From Rhodospirillaceae bacterium (GTDB lineage: Bacteria; Pseudomonadota; Alphaproteobacteria; Bin65): a stretch of DNA of 64,000 nucleotides. This document shows, piece after piece, positions 26,646 through 37,403 of this stretch. A program made the position numbers and the translations under genes. Location of the stretch: positions 62,001 to 126,000 of the forward strand of contig WTGH01000038.1 in assembly GCA_011523655.1 (NCBI GenBank), written 5' to 3'. Position 1 is the stretch's first letter. Each line of letters starts with the position of its first letter. The notes under the pieces are model-generated. The model worked only from the letters and a program-made list of their open reading frames with translations, did no database searches and was not told the origin of the DNA.

Positions 26646-27026
26646 CTAAAGCTCGCCTTTTTCTTCCAGAACCTTCCGGGCGACGCGGAAGCATTCCAGG
26701 GCTTGCGGCACGCCGCAATAGATGCCGACGACGTGGCAGGCGGCGCGGATCTGCTCCTTGGTCACGCCGTTGCCGAGCGCGCCCCGGCAATGGGTTTCCC
26801 ACTCCGTCATCCTGCCGAGCGCGCCAATCATGGCGAGGTTCATCAGCGAGCGGGTCTTGGGGTCGATGGCGTCGTCGCCCCAGCCGAAGCCCCAGCACCA
26901 GGCGGTCATCGCCTCCTGGAACGGCCGGGTGAAATCATCGGCATTGTCCAGCGCCTTCTGCACATAGTCCGCGCCGAGGGTCGCCCGGCGCTGCGCCAGG
27001 CCGGTCTCGAACAGATCCTGATCCAT
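26646..27026 (-). CDS. Carboxymuconolactone decarboxylase family protein
   Basis: This 126-aa, all-helical AhpD/PcaC-type protein starts MDQDLFETGLAQRRATLG behind AGGAG (7-nt spacing). It contains TRSLMNLAMIGALGRMTEWETHCRGALGNGVT, the CMD core with a conserved His, and EQIRAACHVVGIYCGVPQALEC. It is the last gene of the molybdenum hydroxylase operon, 34 bp after the large subunit. Its residues fit the decarboxylase/hydrolase side of the family rather than a CxxC peroxidase. The substrate is unknown; it may act on the hydroxylated product made by its neighbours. Confidence 0.85.
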   Translation of the reverse strand: MDQDLFETGLAQRRATLGADYVQKALDNADDFTRPFQEAMTAWCWGFGWGDDAIDPKTRSLMNLAMIGALGRMTEWETHCRGALGNGVTKEQIRAACHVVGIYCGVPQALECFRVARKVLEEKGEL

Positions 27027-27060
27027 GATGTCTCCTGGGTTGGGTGGAATGGCGGGCCCG

Positions 27061-29376
27061 TTACACGTCCTCTTTCTCCGCCAGAGCCGCCAGAACCCGC
27101 TCGGGCGTGAGCGGCAGTTTGGTGAGGCGGACGCCGACGGCGTCGTAGATCGCATTGGCGACAGCGCTGGCGACCGGCAGCATGCCGCCTTCGCCCATGC
27201 CCTTGGCGCCGAACGGGCCGGGGCCGTGGCCCTGCTCCTGGGTGACGGAGCGGAAATCCTCCGGCAGGTCGTCGGCGAGCGGCACGCGGTAGGTCAGCGC
27301 GTCGCCGTTCACCAGCCGCGCGCCGTCGTAGATCATGCGCTCGAACAGCGCCTGGGACAGGCCCATCAGGGCGGCGCCCTCGTCCTGGCCGCGGCAGGCC
27401 AGCGGATGGATCGCGCGGCCGGCGTCGCCGGTGACGAACAGCTTCTCGACCGTGACCTGGCCGGTCTCGGTATCGACGGCGACTTGGGCGCCGCCCCAGC
27501 CGATCTCCCAGAACACGCAGGGCGCCTCGAGCGGCGCGGCGTGGCTGTTCTCCGCCTTGTGGAAGCCCTCGCCAACGAATTCCCAGCCGGTACCGCCGAA
27601 ATGGCCCATGACCATCGGCGCGAGTGGATGGGCCTCGTTGCCCCGGCGGATCTCCCAGTCCACCAGGTCGAGTTCGTCCGCCGGGCAGTCCAGCATGTCC
27701 GCGGCGAAGTCGAGAATCTGCCGGCGCGCGGCCAATGCCGCCCGGTCGACCGCCTGGCCCATCACCGAGATCGCCGAGCTGGCGTTGGTACCCTGGTCGA
27801 AGGGCGTGTGGTCGGTATCGACCGGCATGTAGCGGACCCGCGAACGGTCGGCGCCGAGCCGTTCGGCGACCACGGCGGAGAGTGCCGTGTGCGCGCCCTG
27901 GCCGATCTCGGCGGTGCCGCATTGCAGGAAGATGTCGCCGCTGGTCGAGACCTTGACCCGGGCGAGCGCCGGCTTGTTGACCCCGCCGCCGTCCTTGAAG
28001 CCAATGGCTAGCCCCATCCCGCGTTTGATAGGGCCGTCGTCCTCCAGTTCGCCCCGGCGGCGGTAGCCGAGTTCGCGCACCACCAGGTCGAGACCCTCGC
28101 GCAGGTCGCTGTCCATGCCGCTCTCGCCGGGCACGAAGGGCTCGCCCAGGTCGATCAGGTTCTTCCGCCGCATCTCGCAGGGATCGATGCCCAGCCGGTG
28201 CGCGATCATGTCGATCTGGGATTCGCAGGCCCAACTGGTCTGAGTGCCGCCGAAGCCGCGGAACGGACCGGCCGGCGCCGTGTTCGTCATCACGCAGTAG
28301 CAGTCGGTCTTGATGTGCCGGTAGCGGTAGGGGCCGGGGATGCGGTAGCCGGCCTTCTCGGCGACCAGCGGGCTGCCGTCGGAATACGCGCCGGAATCGA
28401 GCAGGATCTCGCTTTCCCGGGCGACCAGGGTGCCGTCCGCCATCACGCCGGTCTTCACCTTGAGGATCGCGGCGTGCTGGGTGTTGGTGAGGAAGCCTTC
28501 CTCCAGGGTCAGGCAGAAGCGCACCGGCCGGCCGGCGAGGCGCGACAGGGCGAGCGCGACCGGCTCGGTCTTGCAGCCGTTCTTGCTGCCGAAGCCGCCG
28601 CCGATATAGGGCACGCGTACGGCGATCCGGTTCTCGGCGATGCCGAAGATGCGGGCGATTTCCTTGCGCACCGGGAACGGGTTCTGGCAGCTCGTCCACA
28701 GCTCGATCCGGTCCTCGCGCGACCAGTCGGCAACGCAGACGAAGGGCTCCAGGTGGAAATGGTGCATGCGCGAGAAATGGAACACGTCCTCGAAGACGTG
28801 ATCGCATTCGGCGAAGGCGTCGGCGGGGCCGGTCTCGTAGGAGAAGCGGTAGCAGACGTTCTTGCGCGGCCGCAGTTCGCCCGACGCGCCTTGCCCGTAT
28901 GCCGGCACGATACCGGCCGGCGCGTCCTCGAAAAGCTCCGGGGCGTCCGCGTCCGAAGCCGTTTCCAGATCCGTGACCATCGGAAGGGGCTCGTACTCGA
29001 CCCGGATCGCGGCGAGCGCGCGGTTGGCCGTGCCCTCGTCTTCGGCGGCGACGGCGGCGACGATGTCGCCCTCGTAGCGCACCTTGTCCGTGGCCACGAT
29101 CGGCTGGTCCTTGATGAAATAGCCGTAGACCGGCATCGGGATCGCGGCGGTCTCCTCCCGGGTCAACACGGCATGCACCCCCGGCATGGCGCGCGCCGCC
29201 GAAGCGTCGATGGACCGGATGCGGGCGTGGCCGTGCGGGCTGCGCAACACCTTCGCGTGCAGCATGCCCGGCAGGTCGATATCTGTCGTGTAGGCCGCCC
29301 GGCCCGACACCTTCTCGGCGGCGTCGACGCGCCTGTCCGTCCGGCCGATATTGCGCAGCGGCGGCAGGGCGCTCAT
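27061..29376 (-). CDS. Xanthine dehydrogenase-family molybdopterin-binding subunit
   Basis: This 771-aa large subunit carries the molybdenum cofactor. Landmarks in order: YEGDIVAAVAAEDE, VPYIGGGFGSKNG, APAGPFRGFGGTQTSWACE (molybdopterin contact), LQCGTAEIGQGAHTALS, and GPFGAKGMGEGGMLPVASA with the catalytic glutamate in MGEGG. It lacks the AYxCSFR active-site loop of true CO dehydrogenases, so it is an aldehyde, purine or aromatic hydroxylase. Its ATG overlaps the 2Fe-2S subunit stop (ATGA). Confidence 0.92.
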   Translation of the reverse strand: MSALPPLRNIGRTDRRVDAAEKVSGRAAYTTDIDLPGMLHAKVLRSPHGHARIRSIDASAARAMPGVHAVLTREETAAIPMPVYGYFIKDQPIVATDKVRYEGDIVAAVAAEDEGTANRALAAIRVEYEPLPMVTDLETASDADAPELFEDAPAGIVPAYGQGASGELRPRKNVCYRFSYETGPADAFAECDHVFEDVFHFSRMHHFHLEPFVCVADWSREDRIELWTSCQNPFPVRKEIARIFGIAENRIAVRVPYIGGGFGSKNGCKTEPVALALSRLAGRPVRFCLTLEEGFLTNTQHAAILKVKTGVMADGTLVARESEILLDSGAYSDGSPLVAEKAGYRIPGPYRYRHIKTDCYCVMTNTAPAGPFRGFGGTQTSWACESQIDMIAHRLGIDPCEMRRKNLIDLGEPFVPGESGMDSDLREGLDLVVRELGYRRRGELEDDGPIKRGMGLAIGFKDGGGVNKPALARVKVSTSGDIFLQCGTAEIGQGAHTALSAVVAERLGADRSRVRYMPVDTDHTPFDQGTNASSAISVMGQAVDRAALAARRQILDFAADMLDCPADELDLVDWEIRRGNEAHPLAPMVMGHFGGTGWEFVGEGFHKAENSHAAPLEAPCVFWEIGWGGAQVAVDTETGQVTVEKLFVTGDAGRAIHPLACRGQDEGAALMGLSQALFERMIYDGARLVNGDALTYRVPLADDLPEDFRSVTQEQGHGPGPFGAKGMGEGGMLPVASAVANAIYDAVGVRLTKLPLTPERVLAALAEKEDV

Positions 29377-29870
29377 TCGGCAGCCTCCCGTTTTCGCCGC
29401 GCGGCGTCGCGCACCGCCTCCAGGATCAGGCTGTAGCCGGTGCAGCGGCAAATGTTGGAGCTGATCCAGTCGCGGATCGTCGCGTTGTCCGGGTCCGGGT
29501 CGCGGGCGAGCAGGGCCTCGGTCAGCAGGATCATGCCGGCGGTGCAGAAGCCGCACTGGAAGGCCGAATTATCGGCGAAGGCGGCCTGGACCGGGCTCAG
29601 TTCGCCGCCGTCCGAGAGGCCTTCGACGGTTCGGACGTCGCGGCCTTCGACCTCGAAAGCGAACACCGAACAGCTTGCCCGCGGCACGTCGTCGACCAAT
29701 ACGGTGCAGGCACCGCAGACCGCGCGTTCGCAGGCCAGCCTGGTGCCGCGCCCGTCGCGCCGTTCGCGCAGCAGGTCGGCCAGCGTGGTCGACGTGGTCG
29801 TCGCAGTATCGACCGGCGCTCCGTTCAGGGTGAAGGACAGATCGAAGCGGGGATCGAGGCGCTCAGGCAC
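29373..29870 (-). CDS. 2Fe-2S subunit of the molybdenum hydroxylase
   Basis: This 165-aa iron-sulfur subunit has the plant-ferredoxin-type cluster ligands Cys47, Cys52, Cys55 and Cys67 (LACERAVCGACTVLVDD) and the second, helical cluster ligands Cys106, Cys109, Cys141 and Cys143 (QCGFCTAGMI, NICRCTGYS). It passes electrons from the molybdenum subunit to the FAD subunit. It overlaps its neighbours by 4 and 8 bp. Confidence 0.94.
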   Translation of the reverse strand: MPERLDPRFDLSFTLNGAPVDTATTTSTTLADLLRERRDGRGTRLACERAVCGACTVLVDDVPRASCSVFAFEVEGRDVRTVEGLSDGGELSPVQAAFADNSAFQCGFCTAGMILLTEALLARDPDPDNATIRDWISSNICRCTGYSLILEAVRDAARRKREAAE

Positions 29871-30708
29871 GGGCCGCCTCCTGCCGCGCTAACTGCCGGG
29901 CCAGCACCGCCGCACCGGCCCGGCACAGCCAGCCGTTGCCGCTCGCCGGATCGGCGAAATCGGCCGGCAACGCCTCGAACGCCGCCGCAGCGATGCCTTT
30001 GGCCTCGCTGCCCGACAGGTCGAGATCGAGTGCAACCGGCGGCAGATATTCCGTGGCGATGACGGTCCGGCCGCGCGCTTTGCCGCCGCCGTCGCGCCAC
30101 AGGGCGAGCGCCTGGGTCATCAGCGGGCGCAGGGAGCGGTCGTAGTCGAGGCGCAGGCCGGTGGCGAGCGGGATCGACAGGCGGGTCAGCAGCGACCGCG
30201 GCGGCTCGGCCCGGTCCCATATTTCCGCGGGCGTCAGCGCGGCCACGCCGTCGGCCGAGGCGAAATGGGCCGTGCCGCCGAGTACGGTCAGCAGGATCGA
30301 CATTTCATAGCGGGTGTGGCGCGCCATCAGGTTGCCGCCGGCGGTGCCGCTCAGCCGGATGCGCATCTTGCCGAGCTTCGACCAGGCCTCGGCCAGGCCG
30401 GGTATCGCCGTTGTCGCCCCTGCCACCGCGCCCTCCGCATGGGTGGTCAGCGCGCCGATGGAGAGCGCGCCGCCGTCGACGTATACGCCGCGCAGTTCGC
30501 CGAGCCGCTTCAGCCAAACCAGCGTGCCGATCGGCTTGCCCTCGCGCACCGCGCCGCAAAGGTCCGTGCCGCCGGCATAGGGCACCGGCCCCTCTGCGTC
30601 GGCCATCGCCGCGACCGCGTCGTCCACGCTTTCCGGGGCGATCACCGGAAAGGGGGGGATGTCCCGGTAGGAGGCGGCGATCAGCCCGGCCTGGGCGACT
30701 TCATACAT
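29863..30708 (-). CDS. FAD-binding subunit of the molybdenum hydroxylase (CoxM-like)
   Basis: This 281-aa flavin subunit is the first gene of the operon FAD - 2Fe-2S - molybdopterin - CMD. VPYAGGTDLCGAVREGK is the FAD pyrophosphate loop, IGALTTHAEGA and SGTAGGNLMARHTRYEMS are the other flavin contacts. Electrons probably leave here to NAD or a quinone. The start MYEVAQAG (ATG 30708) is the only reasonable one. The operon diverges from the UGSC selenoprotein operon across 208 bp. Confidence 0.9.
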   Translation of the reverse strand: MYEVAQAGLIAASYRDIPPFPVIAPESVDDAVAAMADAEGPVPYAGGTDLCGAVREGKPIGTLVWLKRLGELRGVYVDGGALSIGALTTHAEGAVAGATTAIPGLAEAWSKLGKMRIRLSGTAGGNLMARHTRYEMSILLTVLGGTAHFASADGVAALTPAEIWDRAEPPRSLLTRLSIPLATGLRLDYDRSLRPLMTQALALWRDGGGKARGRTVIATEYLPPVALDLDLSGSEAKGIAAAAFEALPADFADPASGNGWLCRAGAAVLARQLARQEAARA

Positions 30709-30916: not shown

Positions 30917-31966
30917 ATGGAGCTCGCATCCCGGCGCTACGATGTCGCCGACGTCATGGCGGCGCAGGAATTCTACCACAGCCGGGGCTGGACCGACGGC
31001 CTGCCGGTCGTGCCGCCGACGGCGGAGGCCGTCGGGGCGTGCCTGGAATGGGCGCTGCTTCCGCCGGACCATCTGGTCGGCATCGAGCCGGTGCGCGCCC
31101 GCGCGCTGACCGCCGAGAAGCTGGCGGTCAACGCCGTCATGGCCGGCTGTCTGCCGATGCATTTCCCGGTCGTTGTGGCGGCCTTCACGGCAATGCTCCA
31201 GGAGCCGTTCCTCCTGCACGGCGCGACCGCCAGCACGGGCGGCTGCGCCGTGCTTATTGTCGTCAACGGCCCGATCGCCGCCGAGATTGGCATGGACCCG
31301 ACCTTCAATGCGCTGGCATCGAGCGACCGCGCCTCGACCGTTATCGGCCGGGCGGTCCGCCTGTGCCTGATCAACCTGCTCGATGTCCGGCCCGGCGCCA
31401 TCGACCGCTCGTCGCTCGGCCATCCGGGCAAGTTCAGCTATTGCCTGGCCGAGGACGAGGCCGGTTCGGACTGGCTGCCGCTTGCCGACGAGCGCGGCGT
31501 GCCGCCCGGCGCGTCCAGCGTCACGGTCATGGCGGCCGGCGCGCCGCGTCAGCTGATGAACGAATGGACCACGGTTCCGGAAGAAATTCTTGATACCTAC
31601 GCAGCCGAAATGCGTGCCAACATGCGCCATTACTCAATCTGGCCGGGCAACTACGCGATCGTCGTCCCGCCGCAGCTGCGCGCCCATTTCAACGCCGCCG
31701 GCTGGTCCAAGGCCGATATCCGCGCCTGCATTTTCGAGAAGGCGCGCATCCGGCGGGCCGAGTGGGCCGAGTGCGGCAAGGCGGCGGTGGTGCGCGACCG
31801 GGGCGATCGGGAATATGCCGCCCTGACCGCGCCGGAGGACCTGCTGGTGGTCGCAGCCGGCGGCCCGGCGGGCGGATTCGGCGCCGTCATCCCGCCCTGG
31901 CTGGGCGACAAAAGCCGGGCGGTGACCGTCGCCATCGGCGCCTGCGTCGATTGCGAAATACCCTGA
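30917..31966 (+). CDS. Conserved protein of unknown function, partner gene of the UGSC selenoprotein
   Basis: This 349-aa cytoplasmic protein has no signal peptide. GGAGG 4 nt before ATG 30917 supports the start. The pattern FYHSRGWTDGLPVVPPTAEAV, TAEKLAVNAVMAGCLPMHFP, VNGPIAAEIGM and HPGKFSYCLAEDE recurs in a widespread uncharacterised family that I remember as commonly annotated hypothetical. It is Cys-rich for its size and ends in CVDCEIP, a CxxC placed near the C-terminus, so a redox link with the selenoprotein 26 bp downstream is plausible. No catalytic function can be assigned. The pair forms its own operon, divergent from the molybdenum hydroxylase. Confidence 0.8.
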   Translation: MELASRRYDVADVMAAQEFYHSRGWTDGLPVVPPTAEAVGACLEWALLPPDHLVGIEPVRARALTAEKLAVNAVMAGCLPMHFPVVVAAFTAMLQEPFLLHGATASTGGCAVLIVVNGPIAAEIGMDPTFNALASSDRASTVIGRAVRLCLINLLDVRPGAIDRSSLGHPGKFSYCLAEDEAGSDWLPLADERGVPPGASSVTVMAAGAPRQLMNEWTTVPEEILDTYAAEMRANMRHYSIWPGNYAIVVPPQLRAHFNAAGWSKADIRACIFEKARIRRAEWAECGKAAVVRDRGDREYAALTAPEDLLVVAAGGPAGGFGAVIPPWLGDKSRAVTVAIGACVDCEIP

Positions 31967-31992: not shown

Positions 31993-32532
31993 ATGCAGAT
32001 ACTTGACCCGTCGCACGAGGAAGGCGCAACGGCGTTCGCGCCGGCGGCCCGGCTTGCCGCGCTCGAGGGCGCGATCGTCGGAGTGATCTCCAACGGCAAG
32101 GAAGGCACAAAAGGCTTCTTCTCGGCCTTCGAGACGGAGCTCCGGCGGCGCTACGGCGTCGCGCAGGTCGTTCTGCGCACCAAGTCCAACTTCAGCGCGC
32201 CGGCGGACGCGGCGCTGATGGACGAGGCGAAGCGCTGGCACGCGCTGGTCGCCGGGGTCGGCGACTGAGGCAGTTGTTCGTCGTGCAGTTTGCACGATGC
32301 GGTTGCCGGAGAACGCCTCGGGATTCCCTCCGCCGGCATCATGACGGAAACCTTCGTCAGCGCGGCCGAGCTGATGGCGCGGGTGCTGGGCGCCGACGGC
32401 TATCCCTTCGCCGTGATCGAACACCCGATCAGCAGCGCGGACGGGCCGGCGCTCGCCGACCGGGCCAAGCGCGCCGCTGCCGATTGCGCGCGGCTGCTCA
32501 CCATACCGGAAATTCCGGTCGCTAAAACGTAA
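31993..32532 (+). CDS. UGSC family selenoprotein (TGA at 32266-32268 read as selenocysteine)
   Basis: The full product is 179 aa with selenocysteine as residue 92. Before the TGA the frame gives MQILDPSHEEG, then GAIVGVISNGKEGTKGFFSA, ending WHALVAGVGD. After the TGA the same frame continues GSCSSCSLHDAVAGERLGIP, then IMTETFVSAAELMARVLG and AVIEHPISS, with no break in family character. This is the UGSC-family pattern VGD(U/C)GSCxSCSxHD, in which Sec can be replaced by Cys. A SECIS-like hairpin follows the TGA directly. The U-G-S-C-S-S-C cluster suggests a thiol/selenol redox site; the reaction is not known. Standard translation would call a 91-aa protein ending at 32268 and perhaps a second piece ending at 32532. 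The selABCD genes must be elsewhere. Confidence 0.88.
32266..32307 (+). promoter_or_regulatory. Bacterial SECIS element following the selenocysteine TGA
   Basis: Directly after TGA 32266-32268, GGCA (32269-32272) pairs with TGCC (32304-32307), and CGTCGTGC (32279-32286) pairs with GCACGATG (32292-32299; one G-U pair) around the 5-nt loop AGTTT. An internal loop separates the two helices. The apical loop starts 18 nt after the TGA and has G at its second position, which meets the known requirements of bacterial SECIS elements bound by SelB. Confidence 0.8.
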
Positions 32533-32845: not shown

Positions 32846-33310
32846 TCACGATTTTTCCTTTTCCAGCGCGTCGTGCAGGTTTTCGAGCGTTTCGTAAAGC
32901 GCGTCGACCCGCTCCTTGCCGAACGCGTCCTCGATGGCGCGGTACTGGGCTTCCGAATACGGCGCCCGGCGTTCGAGCAGCGCGCGGCCTTTCGGCGAAA
33001 TGGCGACAAGGGTCCTGCGCTGGTCGGACGGCGCGGGGCGGCGCGAGACCAGACCGGTCGCTTCGAGATGCTTCAGGATGCGGCTGAGGCTGGGGGTCAG
33101 CAGGCAGCACAGGTGGGCCAGCGCGCCGGTCTCGACCTCGCCGCGGTCATGGAGGGCGCGCAGCACCCGCCATTGCTGCTCCGTAATGCCGAAATCGCGC
33201 AGCGACGGCCGGAACCGGTCCATCACCGCTTCGCGCGCCCTGAGCAGCGCCATCGGCAGCGAGCGGGAAAAATCCCGCATCGGCGGATCGGGAAGACCGT
33301 CGCCGTTCAT
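32846..33310 (-). CDS. hpaR: HpaR-type MarR family transcriptional regulator
   Basis: This 154-aa winged-helix regulator matches HpaR, the repressor of homoprotocatechuate degradation: MRDFSRSLPMALLRAREAVM, FGITEQQWRVLRALHDRGEV, then CCLLTPSLSRILKHLEATGLV (recognition helix) and RRPAPSDQRRTLVAISPKG (wing). The ATG at 33310 overlaps the stop of the FAH gene (ATGA), so the two are cotranslated. The probable operator is the palindrome at 34276-34287 in the divergent promoter. Confidence 0.87.
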   Translation of the reverse strand: MNGDGLPDPPMRDFSRSLPMALLRAREAVMDRFRPSLRDFGITEQQWRVLRALHDRGEVETGALAHLCCLLTPSLSRILKHLEATGLVSRRPAPSDQRRTLVAISPKGRALLERRAPYSEAQYRAIEDAFGKERVDALYETLENLHDALEKEKS

Positions 33311-34188
33311 CCGCCGAACCGGGCGGGCGGACTCTCGTCGTCCGCGACCCTGTTGGCAAGGGTACCGATGCCCGCCGCCTCGACCTCCACTATGTCTCCG
33401 GGCACCAGCCATTTCGGCGGATCGAAGAAGGCCCCGGCCCCGGTCGGCGTGCCGGTGGAAATCACGTCGCCCGGTTTCAGCGCCGTGAAGGCCGAGACGT
33501 AGGCGATCAGATAGCGGAAACCGAAGATCATGTTGGCGGTAGTATCGTCCTGCCGGACCTCGCCGTTCACCCGCGTCGTGACGCGCAGATCGTCATAACC
33601 GTCGAATTGGTCGGCCGTCACCATCCATGGGCCGGCGGCGCCGGACTGCTCGAAATTCTTGCCCTGGGTGATGTTGAACTTGCCGTGGCGCATCCAGTCG
33701 CGGACCGAGCCCTCGTTGAGGCAGGTCAGGCCGGCGATATGGTCTTCGGCCCGGTCCTGCGGAATGCGCCGACCCGGCTTGCCGATGACGATGGCGATCT
33801 CGCCCTCATAGTCGAACTGTTCGGATTCCGGCGGCCGCAGGACCGGCTGGCCGTGACCTGTCAGCGACCCCTGCGTGCGCATGAAGACGTTGGGATATTT
33901 CGCCTGCGCCGACCTGTCGACATATTCGTCGTCCCGGTTTGCGTAGTTCACGCCGATGCACACCGTCTTGTCGGGGTCGGGAATTGGCGGCAGGAAGGCG
34001 ATATCGTCCAGCGCATAGTCCACTGGCGCGCCGCGGGCGGCCTTTTCGGCCTCGGCCAGCGCTTCGGCGCGCAACAGGGACAATAGATCGGGATATCGGC
34101 CCAGACGCGCGCCGAGATCGATTGCGCCGGCGCCGTCAGCCGCGCCCCATCGGTCCCGCCCGTCGGCACGGAAGCTCAAAAGTTTCAA
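33307..34188 (-). CDS. Fumarylacetoacetate hydrolase (FAH) family protein
   Basis: This 293-aa protein has the FAH catalytic fold. Metal ligands are seen in EQFDYEGEIAIVIGKPGRRI (E-x-E) with an Asp later in the domain, and the core text VCIGVNYANRDDEY and VISTGTPTGAGAFFDPPKWL is standard. TTG 34188 is preferred as the start because LKLLSFRADGRDRWG is the normal family N-terminus and GGAGA lies upstream; the alternative ATG at 34242 adds 18 atypical residues. In Hpa clusters such a protein (HpaG) decarboxylates or isomerises the ring-cleavage product. It forms a unit with hpaR and diverges from the isomerase gene. Confidence 0.87.
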   Translation of the reverse strand: MKLLSFRADGRDRWGAADGAGAIDLGARLGRYPDLLSLLRAEALAEAEKAARGAPVDYALDDIAFLPPIPDPDKTVCIGVNYANRDDEYVDRSAQAKYPNVFMRTQGSLTGHGQPVLRPPESEQFDYEGEIAIVIGKPGRRIPQDRAEDHIAGLTCLNEGSVRDWMRHGKFNITQGKNFEQSGAAGPWMVTADQFDGYDDLRVTTRVNGEVRQDDTTANMIFGFRYLIAYVSAFTALKPGDVISTGTPTGAGAFFDPPKWLVPGDIVEVEAAGIGTLANRVADDESPPARFGG

Positions 34189-34275
34189 AGGGAAATTTCT
34201 CCGGTTACGGGTCTGTTTTTGTGGCCTGTGCACGCCGGCCATCCGATTGACAGCGGAACCGGCCGGTCATATTAC

Positions 34276-34287
34276 TTAACATGTTAA
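34276..34287. promoter_or_regulatory. Palindromic candidate HpaR operator
   Basis: TTAACATGTTAA is a perfect 12-bp palindrome at the centre of an AT-rich patch (34269-34295) in otherwise GC-rich DNA, midway between the divergent FAH-hpaR and isomerase-dehydrogenase-dioxygenase units. MarR-family repressors typically bind such dyads over divergent promoters. Confidence 0.55.
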
Positions 34288-34342
34288 TAGTTTGATGGCG
34301 GCAGGTCAATCGGTGCTGCCGCGAGGGGCGGGGACTCCCGAC

Positions 34343-34753
34343 ATGCCGCATTTCCGGGTCGAGTATTCGCGCAATCTCGAGGAAGCTCTGGACTTGCCGG
34401 AACTGTTCGAACGGCTGACCGGGGTTGCGGCCGGCACCGGCGTGTTCCCGCTGGCCGGCATCCGTTGCCGGGCGCTGCCGCGGGACTCCTACCGGGTCGC
34501 CGACGGCCATCCGGACAACGGCTTCGTCCATGTGGAGTTGCGGGTCGGCGCCGGGCGGGACGTTCCGACTTTGCGCTGCGCCGGAGAAGCGGTTTTCGCC
34601 GCCCTCAACGATCATATGGCGGGCCTGCTGGCGCGCCGGCCGGTTGCCCTTTCCTTCGAAATCGCCGAGATTCATCCGGATCTGAACTTCAAGGCCGGCA
34701 CGATACGGGACCATATGAAGGCGCGGGCGGAAACCGCGGAGGCGGCCGAATGA
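34343..34753 (+). CDS. hpaF: 5-carboxymethyl-2-hydroxymuconate delta-isomerase-like protein (HpaF)
   Basis: This 136-aa tautomerase-superfamily protein starts MPHFRVEYSRNLE; after Met removal Pro1 is the catalytic base of the family. FVHVELRVGAGRDVPTLRCA and SFEIAEIHPDLNFKAGTIRDHM match the CHM isomerase (HpaF/HpcD) fold. It isomerises the ring-cleavage product of homoprotocatechuate in the classical pathway. It is the first gene of the plus-strand unit and overlaps the dehydrogenase start (ATGA at 34750). Confidence 0.85.
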   Translation: MPHFRVEYSRNLEEALDLPELFERLTGVAAGTGVFPLAGIRCRALPRDSYRVADGHPDNGFVHVELRVGAGRDVPTLRCAGEAVFAALNDHMAGLLARRPVALSFEIAEIHPDLNFKAGTIRDHMKARAETAEAAE

Positions 34754-36270
34754 CCGATATGCTGAACGAGCATCTGGCGAAACTGACGCCCTACCGGGAG
34801 CGTATCTGTGCGGGCATCCTGCCGCATCATATCGGCGGCGCGCCGGATCCGGGCGCGTCGGGCAAGACCTTCGAGAACCTGACCCCGGTCGACAATTCCA
34901 AACTCTGCGACGTCGCCCGCGGTACGGCGGCGGAGATCGGCAAGGCCGCCGAAGCGGCCGAAGCGGCGTTCACGGGTTGGCGCAAAGCTTCCGGCAAGGC
35001 GCGCAAGCAGATTCTGCACCGGATCGCCGACCTGATCGTGGCGCGCCGCGAGGAAATCGCCCTGCTCGAATGTCTCGATACCGGCCAGACGATCCGCTTC
35101 ATGAAAGCGGCAGCCGAAAGGTCGGCGGCCAACTTTCGCTATTTCGCCGACCGCGCGCCCGAGGCGGCGGACGGTCTGGCGCTGCCGGCCGACGAGCACC
35201 TGAACTACACGACCCGGCAGCCGATCGGCCCGGTCGGCGTCATCACGCCGTGGAACACGCCTTTCATGCTGTCGACCTGGAAAATCGCGCCTGCCCTGGC
35301 GGCGGGGTGCACGGTCGTCCACAAGCCGGCCGAATGGAGCCCCCTGACGGCGACGATCCTGGCCGAAATTAGCCAGGAAGCCGGCCTACCCGCCGGCGCG
35401 CACAACCTGGTGCACGGCCTGGGCGAAGATGCGGGGGTCGCGCTGACCGAGCACGAGTCGATCAAGGCCATCGCCTTCGTCGGCGAATCCGCAACCGGTT
35501 CGAAGATCATGGCCCAGGGCGCATCGACCCTTAAGCGGGTGCATTTCGAACTGGGCGGGAAGAACCCGGTGATCGTGTTCGAGGATGCGGACCTCAATCG
35601 GGCGCTCGATGCCGCGGTGTTCATGATCTACTCGCTGAACGGCGAGCGCTGCACCTCGTCGAGCCGGCTCCTCGTCCAGCGCAGCATCCACGACGCCTTC
35701 GTGGAAAGGCTGGCGGCACGGGTGCGCAACATCCGGGTAGGCCATCCGCTCGATCCCGAGACCGAGGTCGGCCCGCTGATCCATCCGGTCCATTTCGACA
35801 AGGTGTTGGGCTATATGGACGTGGCGAAGGCGGACGGTGCGACCGTTGCCGCCGGCGGCGCGCGCTCGGCCTTTTCGGATGCCGGCAATTTCGTCAGCGC
35901 CACCCTGTTCACCGGCGCCCGGACCGATATGCGCATCGCCCAGGAGGAGATTTTCGGCCCCGTACTGACCGTCATTCCCTTCGAGGACGAAGAAGAGGCC
36001 GTGCGCATCGGCAACGACGTGCGCTACGGGCTGGCCGGCTATCTGTGGACCGGCGATGTCGGCCGCGCCCACCGGGTCGCCAATGCGCTCGACGCCGGCA
36101 TGATCTGGGTCAACTCCCAGAATATCCGGCACCTGCCGTCGCCCTTCGGCGGCACCAAGGCAAGCGGGATCGGTCGGGACGGCGGCGACTACAGCTTCGA
36201 TTTCTACATGGAGACCAAGAATATCTGCGTCGCGCTGGGCGATCACCGAATCCCGAGACTGGGTGCCTGA
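34750..36270 (+). CDS. hpaE: 5-carboxymethyl-2-hydroxymuconate semialdehyde dehydrogenase-like (HpaE)
   Basis: This 506-aa NAD-dependent aldehyde dehydrogenase resembles HpaE in length and N-terminus. Catalytic Cys is in YSLNGERCTSSSRLLV, catalytic Glu in FELGGKNPVIVFEDADL, and the cofactor site in GVITPWNTPFMLSTWKIAPAL and FVGESATGSKIM. It oxidises the semialdehyde made by extradiol cleavage. The coupling with the isomerase and the dioxygenase genes supports this role; a different semialdehyde is possible because the dioxygenase is of the LigAB kind. Confidence 0.87.
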   Translation: MTDMLNEHLAKLTPYRERICAGILPHHIGGAPDPGASGKTFENLTPVDNSKLCDVARGTAAEIGKAAEAAEAAFTGWRKASGKARKQILHRIADLIVARREEIALLECLDTGQTIRFMKAAAERSAANFRYFADRAPEAADGLALPADEHLNYTTRQPIGPVGVITPWNTPFMLSTWKIAPALAAGCTVVHKPAEWSPLTATILAEISQEAGLPAGAHNLVHGLGEDAGVALTEHESIKAIAFVGESATGSKIMAQGASTLKRVHFELGGKNPVIVFEDADLNRALDAAVFMIYSLNGERCTSSSRLLVQRSIHDAFVERLAARVRNIRVGHPLDPETEVGPLIHPVHFDKVLGYMDVAKADGATVAAGGARSAFSDAGNFVSATLFTGARTDMRIAQEEIFGPVLTVIPFEDEEEAVRIGNDVRYGLAGYLWTGDVGRAHRVANALDAGMIWVNSQNIRHLPSPFGGTKASGIGRDGGDYSFDFYMETKNICVALGDHRIPRLGA

Positions 36271-36274
36271 AACG

Positions 36275-36577
36275 ATGAGCCTCTATTACGTCCAGAAACT
36301 GATGTACCAGCTCAACCGCGATCCCCGGGTGCGCGAGCGCTTCGAGGCCGATCCGGAAAGCGTGTTGGGGGAATACGAGCTGACGGACGAAGAGCTGGAG
36401 GCGATCCGCAAGCCGGATATCGGCCTGCTGTTCGTGCTCGGCGTCAACGGCCAGCTCCTGATGCATTATGCGGCGATGCATCAATATCCTTGGGCGGACT
36501 ACATCCAGGCCATGCGCGACGGCGTTGCCGAACACGGCAGGGTGCGCGAAGGGCTCTACGCCATGCTGGAGGAATAG
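36275..36577 (+). CDS. LigA-type small (alpha) subunit of an extradiol dioxygenase
   Basis: This 100-aa helical protein resembles the alpha chain of protocatechuate 4,5-dioxygenase (LigA). It begins MSLYYVQKLMYQLNRDPRV, then FEADPESVLGEYELTDEELEAI, and ends MRDGVAEHGRVREGLYAMLE. The small chain covers the active site of the catalytic LigB-type partner encoded 4 bp downstream. An earlier GTG at 36263 would overlap the hpaE stop and is an alternative start. Confidence 0.83.
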   Translation: MSLYYVQKLMYQLNRDPRVRERFEADPESVLGEYELTDEELEAIRKPDIGLLFVLGVNGQLLMHYAAMHQYPWADYIQAMRDGVAEHGRVREGLYAMLEE

Positions 36578-36581
36578 CGCG

Positions 36582-37403
36582 ATGCCGTTGGTCTTTGCCG
36601 GCGTCGGCAGCCACGCACCCGGGATCACCGGCCGGGCGCATCTGGCCGATCCGGCGATCCGCGACGAGTTTTATGCGAATTATCACCGCCTGCGCGACGC
36701 CCTGGAAGCGAGCCGGCCCGACGCCCTGGTTGTCGTCGGCGCCGAACATTTCGCCAATTTCTTTTTTGACAACATGCCGGCCTACTGCATCGGCATGGCG
36801 GACTTCTACGAAGGCCCGATCGAGGACGAGGCGTGGCTGGGCATCGAGCGGCGGCGGATTCCGGGCGCGCCGGACCTGTCGAAGCGGCTCATCACCCGGA
36901 TCATGGACGATTGCGACGTTGCCTATGCCCAGGAGTGGAAGTTCGATCACGGCATCTCGGTGCCGCTGCATTTTCTGACGCCGCGCTACGACCTGCCGGT
37001 GGTTCCGGTCAACATCAACTGCCAGGAACCGCCGCTCACCCCGCTGCACCGCACCTGGGCGTTCGGCCGGGCGCTGCGCGAGGCCTGCGACGCGGCGCCG
37101 GAGCGTATCGCGCTCATTGGCACCGGCGGCATTTCCCACTGGCCCTGCACGCCGGACAGCGGCACGGTCAACGAAGCGTTCGACCGGGATTTCCTCGACA
37201 AGTTCGTCAACAACCGCAAGGACGACCTGCTCGCCTATACCGACGAGGAGGTGTATCGCGAGGCTGGCCACGGCGGCTTCGAGATCCGCACCTTCATTAC
37301 GGTCGCCGCGGCGACGGAAGGCGCGACCGGCGAGCTGTTGTTCTACGCGCCGATCCCGATCTTCGCTGTCGGCTGCACCGTGGCGACGATGAGCGTCCAG
37401 TAA
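36582..37403 (+). CDS. Class III extradiol ring-cleavage dioxygenase, catalytic (LigB-like) subunit
   Basis: This 273-aa iron(II) enzyme cleaves a catechol-type ring. Expected ligands are His in VGSHAPGITGR and His in VVGAEHFANFFFDN, a Glu near the C-terminus (FEIRTFITV), and the catalytic His in IGTGGISHWPC. The presence of a separate LigA-like subunit points to protocatechuate 4,5-dioxygenase or gallate dioxygenase relatives. The surrounding Hpa genes instead suggest homoprotocatechuate. The substrate therefore stays open. Confidence 0.87.
   Translation: MPLVFAGVGSHAPGITGRAHLADPAIRDEFYANYHRLRDALEASRPDALVVVGAEHFANFFFDNMPAYCIGMADFYEGPIEDEAWLGIERRRIPGAPDLSKRLITRIMDDCDVAYAQEWKFDHGISVPLHFLTPRYDLPVVPVNINCQEPPLTPLHRTWAFGRALREACDAAPERIALIGTGGISHWPCTPDSGTVNEAFDRDFLDKFVNNRKDDLLAYTDEEVYREAGHGGFEIRTFITVAAATEGATGELLFYAPIPIFAVGCTVATMSVQ

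Follow-up and report, generated by a model that had tools for sequence, protein, structure and literature searches.

A predicted UGSC-family selenoprotein with a conserved partner gene in a Rhodospirillaceae bacterium, and its resemblance to proline and glycine/betaine reductases

Two described systems stand closest to the locus analyzed here. The UGSC family (PF24696 / NF041046) comes from the GOS survey of Zhang and Gladyshev, whose authors in 2008 suspected a Trx-like fold for these proteins and reported their fusion to a domain named Unknown_1 (PMC2398784); the original prediction for this DNA called the reaction of the family unknown, in agreement with reviews up to 2026 (PMC13188914). 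The other comprises the PF07355 proteins PrdB (proline reductase) and GrdB/GrdH (glycine/betaine reductase). Glycine reductase receives its electrons from NADPH by way of thioredoxin reductase and thioredoxin, and the mechanism proposed for proline reductase assigns attack on the substrate to the Sec of PrdB and the resolving step to a Cys (PMC3091704).

The gene described below lies in a window of 64,000 nucleotides from a Rhodospirillaceae bacterium (contig WTGH01000038.1). With the UGSC family it shares motif, length, the exchange of Sec and Cys, and the link to a conserved domain, reported as a fusion in the GOS survey; its subgroup differs from the family in scoring below the NCBIfam cut-off and in that the upstream partner is unfused, bears a CxxC at its C-terminus and is without a Trx domain. 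With PrdB and GrdB/GrdH it shares a UxxC after a strand and an 'E..GIPT' continuation and, by analogy, a partner subunit and a thiol electron supply. However, UGSC aligns only with the Sec-bearing half of PrdB/GrdB, its partner is not recognizably PrdA or GrdE, and, unlike PrdB/GrdB, it occurs outside typical Stickland fermenters, in proteobacteria, haloarchaea, actinomycetes and Bacteroidota. Our analysis was computational and covered Sec family membership, the Sec machinery, the SECIS hairpin, the gene pair, Trx-like domains or trxB/trxA linkage in relatives, and profile similarity to PrdB/GrdB.

The UGSC gene and its in-frame TGA

31993..32532, + strand: UGSC-family selenoprotein gene, 179 aa (PF24696 match, TGA in orthologues, omega)
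32266..32268, + strand: UGA predicted to encode Sec at residue 92, the U of U-G-S-C-S-S-C (motif, alignment A1, Cys codons elsewhere)
32280..32298, + strand: 8-bp apical stem of a bacterial SECIS hairpin whose GUU loop lies at 32288-32290 (fold z, conservation of pairing)

The frame runs from an ATG at 31993 to a TAA at 32530-32532 and contains the TGA as residue 92 (...VAGVGD-U-GSCSSCSLHDAVAGERLG...); when it was re-read, the coordinates, residue number, motif and length given in the original prediction all proved exact. PF24696 matched the readthrough product over residues 2-170, spanning the TGA (E-value 2.7e-46, 158.3 bits; the Pfam gathering score for membership is 25 bits), and this match, together with the TGA in the relatives' orthologues, supports the earlier assignment to a UGSC-family selenoprotein. 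The protein has the family's U/C-G-S-C motif, in which one site takes Sec or Cys, and U92, G93 and C95 are invariant in alignment A1. The window gene is thus a genuine member of a known, uncharacterized family. Its score against the UGSC equivalog NF041046 was 108.1 bits and did not reach the curated 125; scores elsewhere were 119.9 for a same-genus relative (L030), 144.0 (L036) and 147 for two Sec members and 121.5 for a Cys member (L072). The lower values of the window protein and its relative beside those of the other Sec members identify the window subgroup as a divergent branch and, as it lies under the NF041046 cut-off, current naming rules and routine annotation may overlook UGSC members there or break their genes into two fragments. 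That standard gene calling splits the gene, as had been claimed, is seen on the Paracoccus ferrooxidans plasmid pFER4, where a Sec-type UGSC frame (ANUGSCTSWSVHD; L145 5360-5929) is annotated as two hypothetical proteins; on this plasmid the partner adjoins the UGSC frame and selB lies ~3.3 kb downstream. A same-genus gene (L028 1501-2043) has an abruptly divergent C-terminus, probably from an assembly frameshift, and a second copy in the window's own genome (L002 / L121, contig C38) is fused to the partner and keeps the TGA.

An in-frame TGA was present at the Sec site in all 40 UGSC matches, which came from 19 genomes among 116 related ones. Homologues ending at the TGA, which the original prediction held would count against it, were looked for; the homologues continue past the codon. 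Omega downstream of the TGA was 0.012-0.075 in 15 of 15 pairs from six same-genus genomes, indicating strong purifying selection, and in every pair it was lower after the TGA than before. In 32 other loci, drawn from several phyla, the codon at precisely this site is one for Cys (TGT/TGC); the scan that found them used Cys patterns only and so has no bearing on the Sec:Cys ratio.

As in bacterial selenoproteins, a hairpin with a G in its apical loop lies just 3' of the UGA; this G is ~20 nt after the codon and the fold z of the region is -2.7. On average 7.7 of the 8 pairs are formed in Sec copies (n=24) and 4.9 in Cys copies (n=32; Mann-Whitney p 2.9e-10, uncorrected for relatedness), and paired cells make up 95.7% in 23 distinct Sec sequences and 5-50% when the register is slid. 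Covariation is thin, being one double change (in L047, from a C-G to a G-C pair, with Trp for Cys98). Fused UGSC copies have a hairpin at the same place with a very different sequence.

The working selABCD system that the original prediction implied is found on contig C15 of the same genome, where selA (547 bits), selB (405), selD (268) and a tRNA-Sec with anticodon TCA (tRNA-Sec(UCA)) lie within ~6 kb; both selB and selC, whose absence had been named as evidence to the contrary, are therefore present. We surveyed selB in 31 other genomes grouped by their UGSC / PrdB-like content. Of the 18 that have a Sec UGSC, 17 carried it (the exception, G021, is 77% complete), as did one genome with only a Sec PrdB-like protein (G111); it was found in none of the 11 checked genomes having neither UGSC nor a PrdB-like protein, and was absent from a genome with a Cys UGSC (G249). 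The standard ORF list ends the frame at the TGA, as it would if the TGA were a genuine stop, an error in sequencing or a relic of pseudogene decay; such readings are, however, hardly credible against a TGA at one codon in every match, purifying selection beyond it, the SECIS hairpin, a complete set of sel genes, and the Cys form in the only genome with a complete gene but no selB. From its sequence, we predict with near certainty that the window gene encodes a Sec-containing UGSC protein.

The partner gene and thioredoxin linkage

30917..31966, + strand: partner gene, 349 aa, unnamed family (WTDGLPVVPPT...NAVMAGCLP; UGSC adjacency/fusion, AF2 pLDDT 89)
31943..31954, + strand: CxxC motif at the partner's C-terminus, here CVDC, conserved across the window subgroup (alignment A3, C-termini of its members)

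The partner gene ends 26 nt upstream of the UGSC gene on the same strand, and no Pfam or NCBIfam model matched it or 40 of its homologues. Its invariant region includes Asn73, Cys79 and Arg146. Of the 27 loci in relatives where blast detected UGSC, 26 have a partner beside it or fused with it, as do 32 of 32 genome-contig loci. In a 249-genome sample, the partner matches examined for a neighboring UGSC, all but a few on contigs C76 and C136 of G089, occurred only beside one. This linkage spans alphaproteobacteria to haloarchaea; the exception is a same-genus genome (G006) with UGSC and partner on different contigs. In several loci, including the second copy of the window's own genome, both are fused in one chain, and the Unknown_1 domain of the 2008 survey is probably the same partner. 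UGSC and partner very probably form a two-component unit. Tandem partner copies stand behind one UGSC gene or fusion in L114 2122-4319 (G075), and the same arrangement occurs in G089 C12, G021 C14, G102 C2, G063 C73, G067 C1 and G076 C118.

Within the window subgroup the partner's C-terminal CxxC takes the forms CVDC, CIDC, CFDC and CLDC, whereas a second subgroup, with Sec and Cys forms, has a partner frame with an N-terminal CETC domain that gave weak thioredoxin-family matches below cut-offs. A TrxB-like gene lies within ~3 kb in ~12 loci of unfused, tandem and fused architectures. In public plasmid records the order is trxB-trxA-partner-UGSC for Arthrobacter and partner-UGSC-trxB for Roseovarius; the Variovorax record has trxB ~2 kb upstream. 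The UGSC-partner loci of haloarchaea were without trx within the stretch examined, searches of 16-kb stretches at the window and same-genus loci turned up no trxB homologue, and the window-subgroup partner has no thioredoxin-like domain; its CxxC could act as an electron arm. Reduction of the UGSC unit by thioredoxin is likely. The upstream partner, the thioredoxin linkage and the PrdB/GrdB relationship described next all go beyond the original prediction, and a constant partner, thioredoxin modules and a link to PrdB/GrdB make the function of UGSC directly testable.

Relationship to PrdB/GrdB and predicted folds

When 26 UGSC proteins were compared by hhalign with 15 PF07355 proteins from related bacteria, the match had a probability of 87% (E-value 4e-6, score 45.7) and the Sec columns were aligned. 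Among controls, 120 column-shuffled profiles reached at most 24.8 and the reversed profile 11, while with the motif masked the score was still 41.7. Distant homology to PF07355 with an aligned Sec site was thus found, by profile-profile comparison only; as hmmscan of the 26 UGSC members gave no PF07355 (GRDB) match at E-values up to 1, we do not file UGSC as a GRDB member. For the partner, which has no Pfam match, no similarity to PrdA/GrdE-type subunits was established. PrdB-like PF07355 proteins with UPxC or UPxD sites (L052-L069) occur in 10 of the 116 related genomes, several of them with an extra C-terminal stretch of >100 aa.

The AlphaFold model of UGSC (pLDDT 92) is an alternating beta-alpha, five-stranded, Rossmann-like fold in which Sec92 starts a helix after strand 84-90, and its order of elements differs from the thioredoxin order suggested in 2008. 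Fold searches returned generic Rossmann and flavodoxin-like matches (Z 8-11, best 8s7v_H) that were not informative, and PDB sequence searches with UGSC and PrdB-like profiles or single proteins gave nothing usable. For the partner model, Foldseek placed class I fumarases first (best E-value 7e-5), but with TM 0.27, rmsd >15 and VIA Z <7; these and Toblerone fold matches were weak and we did not rely on them.

Proposed reaction, alternatives and genomic neighborhood

Reasoning by analogy from the logic of proline, glycine and betaine reductase, we infer a thioredoxin-driven substrate reductase. Our prediction that the locus encodes a two-subunit, thioredoxin-driven selenoenzyme reducing a small organic substrate is evenly balanced between holding and failing, and a substrate reductase specifically of the GrdB/PrdB type is, on this analogy, a serious possibility. 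In such an enzyme the UGSC selenoprotein (Sec92, Cys95, Cys98) would be paired with the 349-aa partner. Positioned where a helix of the Rossmann-like domain begins, the Sec selenolate would attack a small substrate (a carbonyl, carboxylate or amine) that UGSC and partner hold together, and Cys95 would resolve the resulting selenenyl-sulfide; re-reduction would run from NAD(P)H through thioredoxin reductase to thioredoxin, with a fused thioredoxin-like domain, or the CVDC arm of the window-subgroup partner, as possible alternative reductants.

Across loci the neighbors include glycine-betaine ABC genes, BKACE with a 3-hydroxyacyl dehydrogenase (3HCDH) and a permease, SDF, TRAP and TTT transporters, and CoA-transferases. 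These catabolic and transport genes point to small organic acids or amines, with no single constant theme; automatic ORF-based clustering of neighborhoods was noisy in this GC-rich DNA. The second, fused copy on contig C38 lies beside glycine-betaine (OpuAC) ABC transporter genes, and as OpuAC accompanies the fused copy in the window's own genome, partly in G003 and not in G004, this is suggestive only. UGSC-like/partner fusions with Met-Gly-Thr-Ser at the Sec/Cys site were seen in Vibrio europaeus (L144 5368-7053) and Sporomusa termitida (L146 6308-8032), both near aconitase X genes; these Met-Gly-Thr relatives indicate that members of the wider superfamily are not always thiol redox enzymes and that part of it works without Sec/Cys.

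A large constant partner subunit would be unusual for a peroxidase, which counts against taking the selenoprotein pair for a thiol peroxidase or general thiol-disulfide oxidoreductase in oxidant defence rather than a substrate reductase. The predicted Rossmann-like fold, which lacks the Trx order, and neighbors that are catabolic and transport genes, not stress genes, argue the same way, so that we consider this explanation unlikely, if still worth weighing, as most UxxC Sec families are thought to be redox proteins (PMC13188914), a Trx-like fold was suspected by the 2008 authors (PMC2398784), and the thioredoxin linkage is compatible with it too. We regard as improbable a division of roles in which catalysis, of a lyase or hydratase kind, lies with the partner while UGSC serves as a redox switch or as an accessory that binds metal or selenium: the fumarase matches to the partner model and the loss of Sec/Cys (MGTS) in fused relatives near aconitase X would fit this, but the fold match is poor, the partner has one invariant Cys only, and Sec/Cys is otherwise invariant in A1. 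Returning to the substrate reductase, we tentatively propose that UGSC and partner could represent a widespread, non-Stickland class of thioredoxin-driven selenoenzyme reductases, a distant sister of proline/glycine/betaine reductase serving organic-acid or quaternary-amine catabolism in bacteria and haloarchaea.

Two further gene groups flank the pair in the window. Divergent from it, at 26646-30708 on the minus strand, are genes of the CoxL/CoxM/CoxS molybdenum-hydroxylase type, with a small gene downstream; we dropped CoxL/M/S as functional partners, since they lie beside the pair in 4 of 6 same-genus loci and not in the other genera examined. At 32846-37403 there is an HpaR-type regulator (157.9 bits, over the cut-off) together with fumarylacetoacetate-hydrolase-type, aldehyde-dehydrogenase and dioxygenase-like genes (read by eye), a group that resembles a homoprotocatechuate pathway cluster.
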